Positions 11,594-44,474 of a stretch of 47,531 bases of DNA are shown one piece after another. The translations under genes were made by a program, and so were the position numbers. A model generated the notes under the pieces. That model made no database searches and had not been told where the DNA came from. It was given only the letters and a program-made list of their open reading frames with translations. The stretch lies in IMG/VR virus record IMGVR_UViG_3300046692_000064, positions 1 to 47,531 of that record, one strand, 5' to 3'. This DNA is from a virus. The stretch's first letter is position 1; each line of letters opens with the position of its first letter.

Positions 11594-13066
11594 ATGTCTA
11601 TCCCGGCAAGTCGCATTGTCACGATCAACCCGTCTGCCATCGGCACTGGCGGCAATCCGCTGGCAATGAACACCCTGCTCATTGTGAGCGGTCCTGAACG
11701 CACGATTGGCGTGCAAAAGTTTGGCAGCGCTGCCGAGGTTGGCGCCTTCTACGGCCTGACGTCGCCCGAATACACCTTTGCCGGCCGCTATTTCCTCGGC
11801 TATGACGGTGCCTTCAAGGTGCCTGGTGCGCTGAACGTCGTGCAGAACCCGTCTGCCGCACTGCCTGCCATCCTGCGCAGCGCCAGTGTGCGCAATATGA
11901 CGCTGACGCAGCTCAAGGCCATTGTCGGCGATCTGGTGGTAACGATTGACGGCTCGCCGATCACTGTGCCGGTCAACTTCTCGGCAGTCACCAGCTTCTC
12001 CGAAGCTGCCGCCCTGTTGACCGACGTGAGCAACTTCGTCGGCGACTACAACGAGCAGCAACAGTGTTTCGAGCTGACCACCGTTGACACTGGCGCCACC
12101 GCCAACATTAGCTTCGGTTCTGGCGTTGTCGGCCTGGCGATCAAGCTGGATCAAGCAGCCGGCGCGCAGAAAGAAAACGGCCGCGCTGTAATGACCGACG
12201 CCGAGTTGATGGCATACGTCCTAAATAGAACCCAGAACTTCGGCGTCATTACCCACGTCGCCGAGCAGATTCGCGCCAATAAAGAAGCCATGGCGGCATG
12301 GGTGACGCTGCAGAACAGCCGCTTCGCCTACATCGCTCAGGACACTGACGGCACGGCGCTGGTCACCAACAACGACGCCAGCTTCGGCGCATGGCTGGCT
12401 GAAACCGAGCAGAACGGCACGACCCCTTACTACGGCACCATCGAGCAAGTGGCGGCAGTCTGTGGCGGTATCGCGGCCATCGACTTCAAGCGCACCAACG
12501 GCCGTCGCAACATCATGTTCATGAAGCAGGCCGGCATTGCCGCGACCATCACCGAAGAAGGCGAATACACCGCGCTGATGAGCAACGGCTACACCTTCTA
12601 CGGCGAGTTCGCGACTGCCAACGATGAGTTCACCTTCAACGTCAACGGCGCCGTATCGGGTCAGTTCAAGTGGCTGGACAACTACGTCAACCAGATCTAC
12701 CTGAATGCGCAGTTCCAGTTAGCGATGGTGACCATGCTCGTCAGCTACGGCTTCATCCCGTACAACGAAGCGGGCAAGGCGATTCACCGCGCAGCAGCTT
12801 CCGCCCCGATCAGTGAAATGCTCAAATTCGGCGGCATCGTTGCGCTGATTGATCCTGCAGCGCTGACCGATCAACAGAAGTCGATCATCAACACTCAGGC
12901 CGGTTTCGACATTGTGCCTTCCCTGCTTTCCAAGGGCTGGGCCATCGACATCAAGACGCCGGATGCGCAGACGCGCGGCAACCGTGGCTCGTTCCCGTTC
13001 ACCTTCTGGTACACAGACGGCGGATCGGTTCAAGAAGTCAACATGGCCTCCATCAACGTTCAATAA
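11594..13066 (+). CDS. Tail sheath protein (DUF3383)
   Basis: The 490-residue protein opens MSIPASRIVTINPSAIGTGG, the DUF3383 start, and carries LAMNTLLIVSG, FYGLTSPEYTFAGRYFLG and a C-terminal NRGSFPFTFWYTDGGSVQEV. DUF3383 proteins form the contractile sheath around the tail tube, so this gene defines the phage as a myovirus. It is directly followed by the tube gene, the usual order. Confidence 0.9.
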   Translation: MSIPASRIVTINPSAIGTGGNPLAMNTLLIVSGPERTIGVQKFGSAAEVGAFYGLTSPEYTFAGRYFLGYDGAFKVPGALNVVQNPSAALPAILRSASVRNMTLTQLKAIVGDLVVTIDGSPITVPVNFSAVTSFSEAAALLTDVSNFVGDYNEQQQCFELTTVDTGATANISFGSGVVGLAIKLDQAAGAQKENGRAVMTDAELMAYVLNRTQNFGVITHVAEQIRANKEAMAAWVTLQNSRFAYIAQDTDGTALVTNNDASFGAWLAETEQNGTTPYYGTIEQVAAVCGGIAAIDFKRTNGRRNIMFMKQAGIAATITEEGEYTALMSNGYTFYGEFATANDEFTFNVNGAVSGQFKWLDNYVNQIYLNAQFQLAMVTMLVSYGFIPYNEAGKAIHRAAASAPISEMLKFGGIVALIDPAALTDQQKSIINTQAGFDIVPSLLSKGWAIDIKTPDAQTRGNRGSFPFTFWYTDGGSVQEVNMASINVQ

Positions 13067-13078
13067 GGGGAACGCATC

Positions 13079-13528
13079 ATGACAATGTCTCAGAACCCCC
13101 GCACGATCACGGCGGCCAACAGTGTCGTTATGTTCACCGCTGCGGGCTACTACGATCAGGCGATCAAGCTCCAGGGCTTCCAGGTCGATAACGCTTTCGG
13201 CTTCGGCGATGCCACCGTCGGCGAAACTCGCATCGGCGTGGACGGCAAGCAGTCGGGCGGCTGGGTCGCGCACGAAGTTCCGGTGACCGTGTTCTTCGAA
13301 GCGAACAGCGCCAGCCGTTTGCAGATGGAGCAGTACCGCGCCTGGTGCAACGCCAACCAAGAAACCAGTCTCTGCACGCTGGACATCACCATCCCGTCGA
13401 TTGGCCGTCGTATCCAGGCCAGCGGCTTCATGGTCAGCCAGGGTGGCGGGCCTTCCGCGCAGAAGCTCATCAACGGCACGCAGTACGTGTTCAACATGGT
13501 CATCAACAGCGAGGAATCCATCTCGTGA
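13079..13528 (+). CDS. Tail tube protein (DUF3277-like)
   Basis: The 149-residue protein follows the sheath gene, has RTITAANSVVMFTAAGYYDQAIKLQGFQVDNAFGF, GVDGKQSGGWVAHEVPVTVFFEANS and an ending with a NGTQYVFNMVINSEESIS strand. This matches DUF3277-type inner tube proteins paired with DUF3383 sheaths. Hexameric rings of it would make the tube through which DNA passes. Confidence 0.85.
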   Translation: MTMSQNPRTITAANSVVMFTAAGYYDQAIKLQGFQVDNAFGFGDATVGETRIGVDGKQSGGWVAHEVPVTVFFEANSASRLQMEQYRAWCNANQETSLCTLDITIPSIGRRIQASGFMVSQGGGPSAQKLINGTQYVFNMVINSEESIS

Positions 13529-13953
13529 TTACCACCAAGGACGTGACCATCGAGGACGGCACGGACGCCGGCAAGACGTTCATCGTGAAGAAGATGCCAT
13601 TGCTTCGCGGTGATCGTTGGGCCAACCGCGTGGCGCTGTCGCTGTGCAAGGGCGGCGTTGATATCTCTGGCCTGACCACGACCGACGAAAACGGCAAGTT
13701 AGTGTTCCGTGGTCTGCTGGACATGGCGGGCGTCGTTAACGTGGCACTGAAAGCCTTGGGCGGCGTCGATGACGTCACCGCTCAAGACCTGCTGGACGAG
13801 GTGCTGCAAGACATTCGCCTGCGCCTGCCCGGTGGATCGGAACGACCATTGATTATCGAAACCGACGTGACCAGTATTTCCACGCTCTGGAAACTGCGTA
13901 TCGAGTCAATCAAGGTCAATCTCGATTTTTTAACGGCCGGCGTTACCCAGTAA
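13525..13953 (+). CDS. Tail assembly chaperone, short form
   Basis: The 142-residue protein starts at GTG 13525 in a GTGA overlap with the tube stop and precedes the tape measure, the usual place of the G/GT-type chaperones. It contains VTIEDGTDAGKTFIVKKMPLLRGDRWANRVALSL and later QDLLDEVLQDIRLRLPGG, the pattern of tail assembly chaperones of this phage group. Near its end (13926-13932) it has a canonical slippery heptamer, so a fraction of ribosomes would make a longer fusion with the next frame. Confidence 0.85.
   Translation: MITTKDVTIEDGTDAGKTFIVKKMPLLRGDRWANRVALSLCKGGVDISGLTTTDENGKLVFRGLLDMAGVVNVALKALGGVDDVTAQDLLDEVLQDIRLRLPGGSERPLIIETDVTSISTLWKLRIESIKVNLDFLTAGVTQ
13926..13932 (+). other. 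Programmed -1 frameshift heptamer
   Basis: T TTT TTA stands in the correct phase (zero-frame codons GAT TTT TTA), matching X XXY YYZ. Twelve bases on, ACCC (13945-13948) and ATCG (13953-13956) can pair with CGAT (13961-13964) and GGGT (13965-13968), a plausible stimulatory hairpin with a 4-base bulge. The -1 frame is open from here to 14183 and fuses to the next small ORF. Confidence 0.85.
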
Positions 13954-14183
13954 TCGAAACCGATGGGTTGCAGATGCCTCTGAACACCGAGGCGTTTGCA
14001 AGGTGCGTAAACCTGAGCAGCCAGGCCTTCTATGTCCTCGACAACGGCCTGGCCACTTACGCTGATCTTGACGCGCACCTAACGCTTGAAGACGCCATCA
14101 CGATGATTGAATTTCATCAGGTGTCCGCGCACAACAAGGCACTGATCAAGGAATTACAGGATGAGCTCAGTAACGGTCGATGA
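13932..14183 (+). CDS. Tail assembly chaperone -1 frameshift extension
   Basis: Slippage at 13926-13932 joins residues 1-136 of the chaperone to 83 residues read in the -1 frame, giving a 219-residue fusion ending at 14183. The extension runs NGRRYPVIETDGLQ then MPLNTEAFARCVNLSSQAF and ends IKELQDELSNGR. ATG 13974 has no Shine-Dalgarno sequence, which favours the frameshift over independent translation. Short and long chaperones at a fixed ratio guide tape measure folding and tail length in many phages. The end overlaps the tape measure start by 23 bases. Confidence 0.8.
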   Translation, partial: NGRRYPVIETDGLQMPLNTEAFARCVNLSSQAFYVLDNGLATYADLDAHLTLEDAITMIEFHQVSAHNKALIKELQDELSNGR

Positions 14184-16425
14184 ACTGGTCATGCGCATCG
14201 AGATTGAACTGGATAAGTTCAAGACCGAGGCGGGCCAGGCTGAGGGCATCGAGAAAAAGCTGCGCGCCGCGATCAAGGGCACCGGAGAGGCATCGGACGA
14301 AGCCGGCAAGAAAGTCGATAACATGGCCTCCAAGCTGGGCGACTCCAGCAAGCAGCTCACCAAGAATCAACAGGCCTTCGTGGCTTTGACTGGTAAGGCC
14401 GTCGCCTTCCTTGGCGCGATAGCTGGGTCTAACGCGCTCGTCAAATTCACGACCGCCATTTCAAACGCCAATGACCAATTGGGTTTCATGTCCAAACGCC
14501 TTGGCGAGACTGCTCGTGACATCAAGGGCATGGACATCGCTGTCGCCGGTCTTGGCGGCGCGGGCGCCTCCGCAGAGAACACCATGAAAAGCCTGAACCA
14601 AGGGATTCAGGAAATGGTGCTTATGGGCAATGATTCGCTGATCCCGTTCTTCAGCGCGCTCGGCGTCGGCGTGGTCGATGCCTCGGGCAACGTGCGCAAG
14701 ATGAATGACGTGCTGCTCGATATGTCTGACTCGCTGTCGAAGATGGACCCGCAGCAGGCCTATGCGATCGCCTCGGCGATGGGCCTGGATGACGGCATGG
14801 CCAACGCCCTGATCCAGGGCCGTGACGCCATGCAAGAAATGCTCAGCATGCAGGAAAAGGCCTACGTCTCAAGCAAAGAGGATATTGCCGCCAGTCGCGA
14901 ACTGAGCAAGGCGCAAGCATTCCTGGCCGCGCAATGGGAAGGCCTGAAAACCATGCTGGCCAACGCGCTGATTCCCGTCCTGCTCAAGATCACGAAAGTG
15001 GTGTCGGGTTGGATGGATTACCTGGCGCGCAACGAGCGCACGGCGCGAAACTTCTTCGAGGGCATCGCCATTGCGGTGACGGTGCTGCTCATCCCGGCGC
15101 TGGTCAAGGCGGGTATCGCCATCTTGGCGCTGGTGGCGCCGATCCTTGGTACGGCTGTCGTGGTGGCTATCCTGGCTGCCGGCTTCGCTCTGCTGTACGA
15201 CGATTACAAAACCTGGTCCGAGGGCGGCAAGTCGCTGTTCGACTGGGAGAAATTCGACAAGTACATTCGAACCACTGACGTGTCGGTCAATAGCCTGGCC
15301 AAAGGCTTTTCCCGCCTGCTGACCGGCTACGACTCGCTTGATGAGGCGCAGAAAGCCTTTTCGAAGTGGCTGCATGAAAAAGGCATCATCGACGAAAATG
15401 GTGTGTCCGTCCGGGGCCTGGCGAACGCCTTCAAGCAGTTAGGCAAGGACATTTTCGACTCGGTCCCAGCCATGAAAACCATGCTCGATCTGATCGGCGC
15501 CGTGATGGAAGGTCGGTGGAGTGACGCCTTTGACCTGGCAAAGAAGATCCCCGGCCAGATGGCGGGAACCCTTCTGGATGTGGGACAGGCCACCTCTGGT
15601 CATGTCGTTGGCGCAATAGACACCATGCTTGGGCATGACCCCGAGCAGGAAGGCACCATCTCCAGCGCTCAGCGCGGCGCCTTCGACTGGATGAAAAACA
15701 AGCTCGCGGGCTGGGTAGGCTCTTCAGGCTCCGGCTCGTCTGGTGGCGGCGCTGTGGGCGGCGGCCTCTCTAATGACAACGCCAACTCTATCGCCAGGAT
15801 CGCCCAGCAACTCGGCCTAGATCCTAACGATCTTGCACAGATCATCTCCTTTGAGACGGGCGGCACGTTTGACCCTAACGCCCGCAATCCGAACTCGTCG
15901 GCCACCGGCCTGATTCAAAAGATGGCCGACCCTGACGGCAAGTATTACGGGAACACCCGCGACGAGCTGGGTGCCATGGGCTTCGATGAGCAAATGGAGA
16001 AGGTGGTCAAGCGCTACTTCCAAGAGCGCGGCTTCTCTGACGGTCGCACGCACACCGTCGGCGAGGCTTATGAGGCCGTGGCGGGATCTGGCTACAAGAA
16101 GGGCTCCAAGGCCTACGACTTGAACAAAGTGTGGGATACAAACGGGGACGGTACGATTGGCCGCCAAGAGGCGGTGGAGTCGCCACAGTTCAAGGCGCAC
16201 GGGCAGGACTGGATGGGCGCGCAAAGAGCCATCCAGATGACGGGCATTCCCGGCGCTCCAGGGGGCGGCACTTCTAACAATCAGGGTGGCGCGCAAGTTA
16301 CCATTGGCAGCGTCACCGTGCAGACCTCAGCGACTACCCTGCCGGAAGCCACTGCTGCAGGTGTAGCGGCGGGCGTATCGCGCAGCAGTCAGCTTATTAA
16401 CCAATTGGGAGGCGGCACGCTATGA
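14161..16425 (+). CDS. Tape measure protein with lytic transglycosylase domain
   Basis: The 754-residue protein has an N-terminal helical region, a strongly hydrophobic stretch at about residues 296-345 (membrane-active segment used during DNA entry), a Gly/Ser linker near residues 520-535, and a lysozyme-like domain from about 540 to 690 with FETGGTFDPNARN and SATGLIQ (likely catalytic Glu about 565). A DTNGDGTIG segment in that region looks like a calcium-binding loop. It sets tail length and opens peptidoglycan at infection. At 754 residues (about 0.15 nm per residue) a tail near 110 nm would be expected. Confidence 0.9.
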   Translation: MSSVTVDELVMRIEIELDKFKTEAGQAEGIEKKLRAAIKGTGEASDEAGKKVDNMASKLGDSSKQLTKNQQAFVALTGKAVAFLGAIAGSNALVKFTTAISNANDQLGFMSKRLGETARDIKGMDIAVAGLGGAGASAENTMKSLNQGIQEMVLMGNDSLIPFFSALGVGVVDASGNVRKMNDVLLDMSDSLSKMDPQQAYAIASAMGLDDGMANALIQGRDAMQEMLSMQEKAYVSSKEDIAASRELSKAQAFLAAQWEGLKTMLANALIPVLLKITKVVSGWMDYLARNERTARNFFEGIAIAVTVLLIPALVKAGIAILALVAPILGTAVVVAILAAGFALLYDDYKTWSEGGKSLFDWEKFDKYIRTTDVSVNSLAKGFSRLLTGYDSLDEAQKAFSKWLHEKGIIDENGVSVRGLANAFKQLGKDIFDSVPAMKTMLDLIGAVMEGRWSDAFDLAKKIPGQMAGTLLDVGQATSGHVVGAIDTMLGHDPEQEGTISSAQRGAFDWMKNKLAGWVGSSGSGSSGGGAVGGGLSNDNANSIARIAQQLGLDPNDLAQIISFETGGTFDPNARNPNSSATGLIQKMADPDGKYYGNTRDELGAMGFDEQMEKVVKRYFQERGFSDGRTHTVGEAYEAVAGSGYKKGSKAYDLNKVWDTNGDGTIGRQEAVESPQFKAHGQDWMGAQRAIQMTGIPGAPGGGTSNNQGGAQVTIGSVTVQTSATTLPEATAAGVAAGVSRSSQLINQLGGGTL

Positions 16426-29343: not shown

Positions 29344-29718
29344 TCAGGTTTTCGATTGCTCTATATCAAGCCCCTCTAGTATTGCTTGTTGCTTTCGCTC
29401 AGCCATCCCAAGCAGATGCCGTAATGATGTCGGATCGTCGAATCGTGATTCGCTTGCATATTCGGCGAGCTCTGCACGCAAGGCGCCAAACTCGATCCCT
29501 TCATCATCTGGCATACCATAAGGTCCGACACGAAGCGTCAGATCAAGCCAGTTGAATGCCAGGTGACATCCGGCGCACCTCTTAAAGCTATATCCCTGGC
29601 CATCTGTAGCCCCCGAAAGGATCATGTACCGATGCCCTTGCTTGATGGTCCCTCTACATTCGCTACAGATGTGATCCTTGCGCGCCCTCACTCCTTTTTG
29701 CGTACTGAAGTCGCTCAT
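29344..29718 (-). CDS. Zinc-finger-like protein, hypothetical
   Basis: The 124-residue protein has a GVRARKDHICSECRGTIKQGHRYMILSGATDGQGYSFKRCAGCHLAF segment, with Cys pairs CSEC and CAGC spaced to bind a zinc ion, an arrangement like small phage or PARP-type zinc proteins. The C-terminal half is helical (LRAELAEYASESRFDDP). It overlaps the start of the upstream gene's stop by 4 bases. Function unknown. Confidence 0.65.
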   Translation of the reverse strand: MSDFSTQKGVRARKDHICSECRGTIKQGHRYMILSGATDGQGYSFKRCAGCHLAFNWLDLTLRVGPYGMPDDEGIEFGALRAELAEYASESRFDDPTSLRHLLGMAERKQQAILEGLDIEQSKT

Positions 29719-30248
29719 AGTGCCTCGCTTGATTTCATGCGATTCCTGAATTTCGGAAAGTCTATGTCGTAGTCGTCGATGATCCGGCGCAAAGTCCCGC
29801 TCCCGATGCCCATCTGCTTCTCCACCTGGTGGCGCGTCAAGCCTACATCGCGCAGGGCAGTGATGCGCTCGATCAGCTTGGCGTCATCGGATCGCGCATT
29901 GGGCTTGCCCATGGTGTCGGGAAGGAACTTGAATTCCTCGCGCTGCGCCATGGTCCACAACGTGGTTTGCGCCATCCCTACGGCTGCCGACACTTCGCGG
30001 CACGTCATGGTCTTGGCCATCTCCGCGATGAGTGCTGAGCGCTGTTTGCTGCGCTCCAGTCGAGCCCCGCGCTGATGGATGCCCTTCGGCTTTTTCTCGC
30101 CAGGCTCTGGATGCTTGCGCGGCGGCTTCGGCCTGAATTCGAAGCCGGCCACTTCTTCGACCTTCCCGCCTGATTGGAAGAAAGCGGCTTGCGCCGCCTC
30201 CAGTCGTGCCTGCCGGTGGGTGCTAATTAGGATCTGATTATCGATCAT
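29715..30248 (-). CDS. Helix-turn-helix DNA-binding protein, hypothetical
   Basis: The 177-residue protein has two helix-turn-helix-like units: MTCREVSAAVGMAQTTLWTMAQREEFKF (about residues 80-108) and DVGLTRHQVEKQMGIGSGTLRRIIDDYDI (about 133-161), joined by a charged linker, plus a Pro/Lys-rich segment (RPKPPRKHPEPGEKKPKG). It overlaps the exonuclease stop by 4 bases. It may regulate replication or recombination genes in this operon. Confidence 0.65.
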   Translation of the reverse strand: MIDNQILISTHRQARLEAAQAAFFQSGGKVEEVAGFEFRPKPPRKHPEPGEKKPKGIHQRGARLERSKQRSALIAEMAKTMTCREVSAAVGMAQTTLWTMAQREEFKFLPDTMGKPNARSDDAKLIERITALRDVGLTRHQVEKQMGIGSGTLRRIIDDYDIDFPKFRNRMKSSEAL

Positions 30249-30868
30249 GCCTCGATCCCCAGAACGCGATTCATGCGGTCTTCAAGGAGTTCATAGAAGG
30301 TCTTGGCGCGCTCGGCCATCTTGCGGATCATCGCCTCGTCGCGGTGAAGGCGCTTCACGAACAGCGGCATGCCAGGCCAGTAGCTGATGAAGTCGATCCA
30401 CTCTCGGCCCGAAATCCAGAGTCCACCCTGGCACTGGGCCAGGTGCTCTTTAGGCACTTCGCCGGACAGGATCAGATCAACCTGGTACTTGGGCAGCTTG
30501 GTCTTTATTTCATTCAGGCCGTCCGCTCCCACTAATGAATCCGGGCTATAGCCGCACCCGTGGTTAAGGATGATCGCCACTTGCTCGCACGAATGGTCGG
30601 TCTGCATCTCGTACAGGGCTCTGGCTTTAGGCTCCAGCTCGTGGCCGCGCTCAGTGTGACGATTACCGGTAAACGGATCAGCAATCTCCTGGGTGATGCG
30701 CTCGCCGATCAACGTGTTCATATAGGTGAAGGCCTCGGCGCCGAAACCTTCCTCACCCTTGCCATTCACCAGCAGCGCGCTCATGTTCGACATGGTTACA
30801 ATGCCCATGCGGATCGCCAACCATTCTTCGCTGCCCTGCTCCAGATCTTTGATGATTTGCATGGTCAT
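30245..30868 (-). CDS. YqaJ-like exonuclease
   Basis: The 207-residue protein has the YqaJ/lambda-exonuclease nuclease pattern: EEWLAIRMGIVTMSNMSAL, then GNRHTERGHELEPKARALYEMQT (with Glu in RGHELEPKAR near residue 77), YSPDSLVGADGLNEIKT (acidic Asp plus ExK) and CQGGLWISGREWIDFISYWPG. These are the conserved metal and catalytic residues. Paired with ERF it makes the single-strand annealing recombination system, resecting double-strand ends. Confidence 0.92.
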   Translation of the reverse strand: MTMQIIKDLEQGSEEWLAIRMGIVTMSNMSALLVNGKGEEGFGAEAFTYMNTLIGERITQEIADPFTGNRHTERGHELEPKARALYEMQTDHSCEQVAIILNHGCGYSPDSLVGADGLNEIKTKLPKYQVDLILSGEVPKEHLAQCQGGLWISGREWIDFISYWPGMPLFVKRLHRDEAMIRKMAERAKTFYELLEDRMNRVLGIEA

Positions 30869-31620
30869 TGTGCTGCTTCCTGTTTTTTGGCTTTGGAGAT
30901 GGAGTTGTTGAGGCCGGCAATTACGCCGTCAAGCGCGGACTTCGCAATCTGTCCAGGGTCGCCGTACATCTTTTCAAAGTTGGCGTGCACTGCAGCGCTG
31001 CACTTATCGAGAAGCGATTGAACTTGGCGGGCTTGCGCAGGGGTGATTAACTGCTCGCCCTGGTCCTTATAGCCATCGTTGTCGTTGTCGTCGCCGCTGG
31101 TGATGTTCAGCAGGGCGCACATCACATAACGCTTGCCGTAGGTAGTGGTCGATCCAACTTCTTGCACAGCGCTGCGCTGGGCGCCCTTATCCAGCGGCAA
31201 AATCATTTCAGTTTCTTCGCGGTGCCCAGCTTTGTGCATCAGAATCCCGATGATCTTTACGGCGCCGTCGTTGTTTTTCACCTTGAACGAAACGCCAAAT
31301 CCGTATTTGGCCATGACCGGGCGAATGGCGTAGTTGATATCGTCCAAGTCTGCATACATCTTCTTCGTGTGCGTGTTCTGGGTGCGCTTCTCAACCGAAG
31401 GCATGGCGCACTGCATTTCGGCAAAGGCAGCGTTGAACGCTTCCAGGGCGGTCTTGGCTTCCATCCGCTCTTGAAGGGCCATTAGGCGTTCAAGTTTTTC
31501 CATATCGCAGCGCGGATCGAGGGCGAGCCGGCTGATGGTGGCGAGCATGCTGATTTCTTGGTCTTGGTGCAGGGCGACTGACTGGGTTCGCTCTGGCGGC
31601 ATGATGATTTCTTGTGACAT
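30865..31620 (-). CDS. ERF-family single-strand annealing protein
   Basis: The 251-residue protein has the ERF signature: ALEAFNAAFAEMQCAMPSVEKR, YADLDDINYAIRPVMAKYGFGVSF, EETEMILPLDKGAQRSAVQEVGSTTTYGKRYVMCALLNI and a Asp/Asn-rich DDNDNDGYKD. It anneals complementary single strands during phage recombination and genome circularisation. The 4-base overlap with the exonuclease and the upstream DUF1351-like gene form a recombination operon. Confidence 0.93.
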   Translation of the reverse strand: MSQEIIMPPERTQSVALHQDQEISMLATISRLALDPRCDMEKLERLMALQERMEAKTALEAFNAAFAEMQCAMPSVEKRTQNTHTKKMYADLDDINYAIRPVMAKYGFGVSFKVKNNDGAVKIIGILMHKAGHREETEMILPLDKGAQRSAVQEVGSTTTYGKRYVMCALLNITSGDDNDNDGYKDQGEQLITPAQARQVQSLLDKCSAAVHANFEKMYGDPGQIAKSALDGVIAGLNNSISKAKKQEAAQ

Positions 31621-43715: not shown

Positions 43716-44474
43716 ATGAATTTATTGGTTGAAAGATCGGCAAGCATGACAAGTCTTGAGCTGGTCATGCTTATCAACAATCACAGAAAGGCTGAGGCTC
43801 GCAAGGTTGCGCGTCTTTTCCCGTCGAAGGGTTTTGCTCAGCTTGAGCACTCCGACTTTATGAAAAAAGTTGTCGAGGTTCTCGGGGAGAGTGCCGGAAA
43901 TTTTTCCGACACCTACATCCACCAGCAGAACGGACAAACTTACCCGTCCTATCGCTTCCCGAAGCGTGAAGCCTGCCTGATGGCAATGTCGTACAGCTAC
44001 GATCTGCAGGCGGCAGTATTTGACAGAATGACCGAGCTTGAAGAGGTGAAGGCGCCCGCACTGCCTAGGTCATTCGCCGACGCACTGCGCCTTGCTGCAG
44101 ATCAGGCTGAGCAGATCGAGCAGCAATCCCAGCAATTGGCTATCGCTGCGCCAAAGGTTGAATTCGTAGACCGTTACGTCGAATCGTCCGGCCTCAAGGG
44201 CTTCCGCCAAGTCGCCAAGCTGCTGGGCATCAAAGAGAACCTATTCCGGGCCTTCCTGGTCGAAAACAAGATTCAATACCAGATCAGTGGCGAGTGGGTT
44301 CCCTACGCCAACCACATCGACGCCGGCCGGTTTGAGGTGAAGACCGGGACTGCCGAGCACAACGATCACGCATTTACATCTGCCAAGTTTACCCCGCGAG
44401 GCATTGAATACGTCGCCCGCCTGCTGCGCGACTCAAAGAAAATAGAACCTGAAAAGGCCCTGAGTCATGGCTAA
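43716..44474 (+). CDS. Rha/KilAC antirepressor
   Basis: The 252-residue protein has an N-terminal Rha domain (LELVMLINNHRKAEARKVA, FMKKVVEVLGE, DTYIHQQNGQTYPSYRFPKREACLMAMSYSYDLQAAVFDRM), a helical linker, and a KilAC domain (KVEFVDRYVESSGLKGFRQVAKLLGIKENLFRAFLVENK, then FTPRGIEYVARLL). Such proteins bind DNA or a repressor and control the lytic switch. ATG 43716 has a weak ribosome site; ATG 43746 is possible. It follows copy B of the leader family, so its synthesis may be set by transcription attenuation. Confidence 0.88.
   Translation: MNLLVERSASMTSLELVMLINNHRKAEARKVARLFPSKGFAQLEHSDFMKKVVEVLGESAGNFSDTYIHQQNGQTYPSYRFPKREACLMAMSYSYDLQAAVFDRMTELEEVKAPALPRSFADALRLAADQAEQIEQQSQQLAIAAPKVEFVDRYVESSGLKGFRQVAKLLGIKENLFRAFLVENKIQYQISGEWVPYANHIDAGRFEVKTGTAEHNDHAFTSAKFTPRGIEYVARLLRDSKKIEPEKALSHG

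Follow-up and report, generated by a model that had tools for sequence, protein, structure and literature searches.

In the window, the 47,531-nucleotide stretch of DNA analysed here (IMGVR_UViG_3300046692_000064, positions 1 to 47,531; a virus record without an isolate), a tail assembly chaperone ORF overlaps a second, smaller ORF between the tail tube and tape measure genes. This is the layout of gpG/gpGT-type systems. It raises the question of whether the two ORFs are also translated as one protein through a -1 ribosomal frameshift, as the original prediction from the sequence proposed. The sequence evidence makes it very probable that programmed -1 ribosomal frameshifting operates in this gpG/gpGT-type tail assembly chaperone gene.

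Reading frames and genome setting

The structural module of the window is of the myovirus type, with terminase, portal, sheath, probable tube, chaperone pair, tape measure, Dit-like and hub proteins (Table 1). The match of the sheath ORF to PF11863 bears out the earlier assignment to a myovirus with a DUF3383 sheath. The ORF at 13079-13528 is labelled "Tail fiber protein gp32" in Pfam and "head and packaging" in PHROGs. Its position between the sheath and the chaperone points to a tail tube role, against both of these names. Outside the structural module, genes for a RecE-like exonuclease, an Erf-like annealing protein and an Ant anti-repressor are found at 29715-31620 (minus strand) and 43716-44474 (plus strand). 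Such genes are common in temperate phages.

Table 1. Features of the chaperone locus and its neighbours, in coordinates of the window.
Feature	Position	Strand	Evidence or description
Tail sheath (DUF3383)	11594..13066	+	PF11863 E 1.4e-87; PHROG 205
Probable tail tube protein (E217 gp32-like)	13079..13528	+	PF22764 E 2.4e-10
TAC-N (gpG-like tail assembly chaperone)	13525..13953	+	142 aa; GTG start; PHROG 1932 E 1.7e-25
Dual-coding stretch, depressed synonymous divergence	13924..13953	+	0.055 vs 0.387 upstream
Slip site T TTT TTA	13926..13932	+	Shift phase of the chaperone ORF
-1 frame extension (gpT-like C-terminal domain)	13926..14183	+	83 codons past the slip, then TGA; PHROG 3976 E 3.6e-14
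Candidate stimulatory hairpin, 6-nt spacer	13939..13979	+	GGCGUUACCCA / UGGGU(UGCA)GAUGCC; position matches the family-wide hairpin
Second hairpin, 13 bp	13968..14002	+	UUGCAGAUGCCUC/GAGGCGUUUGCAA; -19.8 kcal/mol; stronger than the 13939-13979 stem
Tape measure protein	14161..16425	+	PHROG 2276 E 5.2e-65; start codon overlaps the end of the -1 extension

The TAC-N frame begins with the GTG at 13525, which overlaps the stop codon of the tube gene (GTGA), and ends with the TAA at 13951-13953. This GTG is taken as the start, based on the GTGA overlap, in place of a mechanical ORF start at 13345. Around the slip site, the zero-frame codons are GAT (13924), TTT (13927), TTA (13930), ACG, GCC, GGC, GTT, ACC, CAG and TAA (13951). 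The -1 frame reads TTT TTT AAC GGC CGG CGT TAC CCA GTA ATC and continues to the TGA at 14181-14183. The heptamer TTTTTTA therefore lies in the phase originally predicted, the -1 frame is open into the next small ORF as far as 14183, and the fusion has the expected 219 residues (136 + 83). The predicted distance of 21 bases to the chaperone stop is correct when counted from the start of the TTA codon; the heptamer itself ends 18 bases before the stop.

The 14 structural genes contain no second T6N heptamer in shift phase, and the total of X XXY YYZ sites, whatever their type, is five in approximately 5,000 codons. The codon triple GAT-TTT-TTA for Asp-Phe-Leu has a joint probability of approximately 0.0009 in the codon usage of the phage (GAT 0.32, TTT 0.15, TTA 0.018), where TTA makes up seven of 385 leucine codons. 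A Shine-Dalgarno-like AAGG upstream of the slip site appears conserved in the close clade. Distant relatives lack it, and its letters belong to adjacent codons for Lys and Val; it was rejected as a signal.

The AlphaFold model of TAC-N has a pLDDT of 78. When it is compared with the PDB using VIA-align, the three best matches are 5IR0 (Z 9.1), HK97 gp13 (2OB9, Z 6.1, a level that alone is not decisive) and YqbN (3KLU, Z 5.5), and the next match falls to 3.5. The alignment with HK97 gp13 covers 83 residues with an rmsd of 3.9; the two proteins differ in that they are only 11% identical and HK97 is a siphovirus. Foldseek matches of TAC-N in the PDB are all weak, and those in BFVD comprise Acinetobacter AB1gp01 and entries that carry the name tail assembly chaperone. 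The best match, 5IR0, is ORF19 of a Vibrio cholerae PICI-like element, deposited as a "protein of unknown function". Because HK97 gp13 and YqbN rank next after it, the predicted fold suggests that ORF19 is a relative of tail assembly chaperones.

The model of the C-terminal domain has a pLDDT of 81 and no fold match in BFVD. Sequence-profile searches of the PDB with both domains returned no relative, and neither absence is evidence in itself. Neither part of the window's protein has a Pfam family, and the C-terminal domains of relatives have no convincing one. NCBIfam, searched with TAC-N alone, likewise returned no family.

Slip site and fusion frame in homologous loci

Homologous loci came from viral contigs and bacterial genomes searched with a profile, and from 12 annotated phage records. 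The resulting set contains 113 loci, including the window, with protein identities down to approximately 25%; 112 of these have complete sites. A DNA-level search of phage records gave no match.

A tandem heptamer is present in 103 of the 112 complete loci, as T TTT TTN in 92 and as G GGT TTT in 11 (including L089). Within the close clade, where chaperones are down to 74% identical to that of the window, all 17 loci (window included) contain exactly T TTT TTA. Eight loci have T TTT only, followed by C or G (seven of the TTTTTC type and one TTTTG), and one, L088, has GAT TTC TTA AAG (site class TTC TTA AAG) with both frames kept. Both frames are also kept in the distant loci L082, L091, L095, L099, L110, L117 and L122, which have the T TTT slip only (GATTTTTC type).

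The original prediction named loss of the heptamer in homologues that keep both ORFs as an observation that would count against it. Taken literally, this combination is found in nine of the 112 loci, all of them distant, and eight of the nine keep T TTT. These loci weaken the view that a heptamer is always required, not the case for frameshifting itself.

The open frame is more uniform than the slip site. The -1 frame passes the zero-frame stop in all 112 loci, by at least 62 bases, and leads in the direction of one shared domain, PHROG 3976. The distance from the slip to the zero-frame stop ranges from 22 to more than 100 nt, and the fusion stays in frame throughout. In several lineages (L013/L014/L033, L027, L032 and L037-L047) the heptamer marks the exact opening of the -1 frame, with a stop codon of that frame immediately before it. 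This arrangement places the frame switch at or after the heptamer and before the zero-frame stop. The residues FF..R, which exist only in the fusion, lead into PHROG 3976 in every aligned member. All 38 aligned members match PHROG 3976 and all 38 match PHROG 1932. Many members additionally match PHROGs 4625, 4774 and 18181, which may represent the same domain as PHROG 3976.

Synonymous pair divergence, measured in 14 distinct close relatives, is 0.387 before the slip site, 0.055 from the slip site to the stop, approximately 0.20 from there to 14003, and 0.333 beyond. The drop between slip and stop is approximately sevenfold. Such a low value is expected where two coding frames overlap.

Stems downstream of the slip site

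Hairpins were scanned in 46 divergent representatives that are less than 80% identical to one another, with d as the number of nucleotides from the heptamer to the 5' arm. The mean energy of the best hairpin is -14 to -16.5 kcal/mol at d of 0-7 and approximately -10 kcal/mol at d of 11 or more. In 38 of the 46 representatives the strongest hairpin lies at d of 7 or less. Stimulatory RNA structures of this kind are common in gpG/gpGT-type systems but are not present in all of them. The stems GGCAAUCCC/GGGAUUGCC and GGCAGUUCC/GGGGCUGCC in relatives both start at d = 6.

In the Snodgrassella-type clade and its allies (19 sequences), 100% of the cells in the stem alignment are paired, compared with 22-53% in slid-register controls. 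One pair is changed on both sides, being A-U in ten sequences and G-C in nine; it joins the third base of a Gln codon (CAA/CAG) to the first base of a Leu codon (TTG/CTG). Because the 19 sequences are related, this change counts as one or a few events. A pair changed on both sides is also present in the Xenorhabdus-type clade, in a different register.

The window's own candidate stem at 13939-13979 occupies the position of the family-wide hairpin, and the fold of 13938-13990 has an energy of -14.6 kcal/mol (z -1.60). The second hairpin, at 13968-14002, shares the element GAUGCC with this stem: the element belongs to the 3' arm of the first and to the 5' arm of the second, and the second hairpin and the base of the first stem are mutually exclusive. 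Free-energy minimisation favours the second over the family-type stem. In the close clade, 11 of the 13 pairs of the second hairpin never vary, and third codon positions are invariant in Watson-Crick pairs and variable in the loop. This hairpin covers both possible start codons of the downstream ORF, TTG 13968 and ATG 13974. Neither stem has covariation in the window's clade, and no compensated pair emerged when the close clade was analysed with RNAalifold.

The hairpin originally proposed, ACCC..ATCG with CGAT..GGGT, is retained in part. ACCC (13945) and GGGT are sited as described, with 12 bases between the heptamer and ACCC, but the ATCG/CGAT upper part is not conserved. Seven of 14 relatives cannot form the pair G57-C62, and 13933-13973 folded by itself does not surpass shuffled sequence (z = -0.02). 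Many relatives lack at least one pair of the inner helix, and this hairpin was rejected as the sole stimulator. ACCC/GGGT is the upper part of the 13939-13979 candidate stem, and the named hairpin is probably not the stimulator. A more elaborate arrangement, in which the signal of the window's clade consists of the two mutually exclusive stems, with the switch between them setting the frameshift rate and the second stem hiding the early starts of the downstream ORF, is a speculative and rather unlikely reading.

Alternative readings, mechanism and related systems

The downstream ORF could be a separate gene that starts at TTG 13968 or ATG 13974 and is coupled to the chaperone stop, with the T6 run incidental. 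It is called as its own short CDS in many public records, and ATG 13974 is kept in the close clade. However, family members share no conserved start codon: counted from the slip site, the earliest candidate falls between codon 3 and codon 57, and a single member offers no start at all. The conserved FF..R residues are upstream of any start, and the first ATG is inside a stable hairpin. We consider a separate gene very unlikely. Slippage of RNA polymerase on the T6 run, in place of ribosome slippage, is slightly less probable again. There are six consecutive T, and the products predicted are nearly identical to those of ribosomal frameshifting. Against this, six T is short for slippage by bacterial RNA polymerase, relatives swap in G GGT TTT, which has fewer T in a row yet follows the tandem-codon logic, and the stem lies at ribosomal spacing.

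As no isolate stands behind this virus record, the two frames might reflect an error in sequencing or a gene broken within the metagenomic contig, with one ORF as the true gene. The same two-frame layout is present in more than 100 loci, including the isolates AP22, AbP2, Acjo_20, Orisa01 and PA-1. This refutes the explanation for the family and leaves it a negligible probability for the window.

Programmed -1 ribosomal frameshifting is therefore preferred over these alternatives. The slip site, its phase, the open frame, their conservation, selection on the fusion frame and the predicted fold of TAC-N are sequence-based, and we infer the occurrence and rate of frameshifting, the stem that stimulates it and the roles of both proteins. 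The earlier G/GT-type reading is strongly supported by the PHROG 1932 match (1.7e-25), the HK97 gp13-like fold, the conserved frame, the slip site and the hairpin spacing. Most ribosomes would read TAC-N and terminate at 13951, and a small fraction would slip. At U UUU UUA, the P-site tRNA-Phe (on UUU) and the A-site tRNA-Leu (on UUA) would move back by one base and pair with UUU UUU, a step promoted by a stem in the mRNA that begins approximately 6-7 nt downstream. The slipped ribosome would then stay in the -1 frame and produce the 219-residue TAC-NC. By analogy with lambda, TAC-N may form a coat on the tape measure protein, and TAC-NC, the rarer form, may recruit tube subunits through its C-terminal domain.

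The HIV U_UUU_UUA site has the same sequence, and the reported products of frameshifting there carry Leu at the shift codon in 70-80% and Phe in 20-30% (Atkins et al., PMC5009743). The A-site residue on this sequence is mostly read before the slip, which would make the junction mostly Leu with a minority of Phe. The junction here should therefore be mainly VNLDFLNGR. The originally expected ..LDFFNGR is kept as the minor form and gives way to ..LDFLNGR as the main one, in proportions that may differ in the phage's host from those at the HIV site. The fusion peptide YPVIETDGLQMPLNTEAFAR starts upstream of both possible start codons of the downstream ORF.

PMC5009743, which refers to Xu, Hendrix and Duda (2004), describes broad conservation of -1 frameshifting in the tail chaperone genes of phages with long tails. 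The locus resembles lambda gpG/gpGT; it differs in that the slip site is T TTT TTN or G GGT TTT and the phage is a myovirus with a DUF3383 sheath. In the Pakpunavirus / Vandenendeviridae, poly-T frameshifting in a myovirus TAC-N/TAC-NC (phage Adele) has been argued on comparative grounds, according to the available text of PMC12846349. As presented there, Adele shares with the window a myovirus chaperone locus, a poly-T slip motif and a downstream ORF that is usually annotated apart. Unlike the window, it belongs to another phage family and has the motif GTTTTT, and no stimulatory stem appears in that portion of the account (PMC12846349).

Closer relatives are the Acinetobacter Obolenskvirus phages AP22 and AbP2, which have a homologous TAC-N, T TTT TTA and a small downstream ORF, with the -1 frame opening exactly at the heptamer. 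They differ from the window in being approximately 27% identical and in their annotation as two separate genes. The two ORFs are joined in none of the 12 annotated related records examined. A full-text search of openly accessible papers found none on this frameshift in Obolenskvirus-like phages.

The system is ordinary and mechanistically expected, and the gain is in family-level annotation. The comparison extends the case for -1 frameshifting to a large family of DUF3383-type myoviruses and prophages from Acinetobacter, Aeromonas, Pseudomonas, Pantoea, Xenorhabdus, Snodgrassella and others. PHROG 3976, labelled "unknown function", gains a probable role as the C-terminal half of the long chaperone. 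Together with the clear spacing of the stem, the members that naturally have G GGT TTT or T TTT in place of T TTT TTN would provide a graded series of slip sites.
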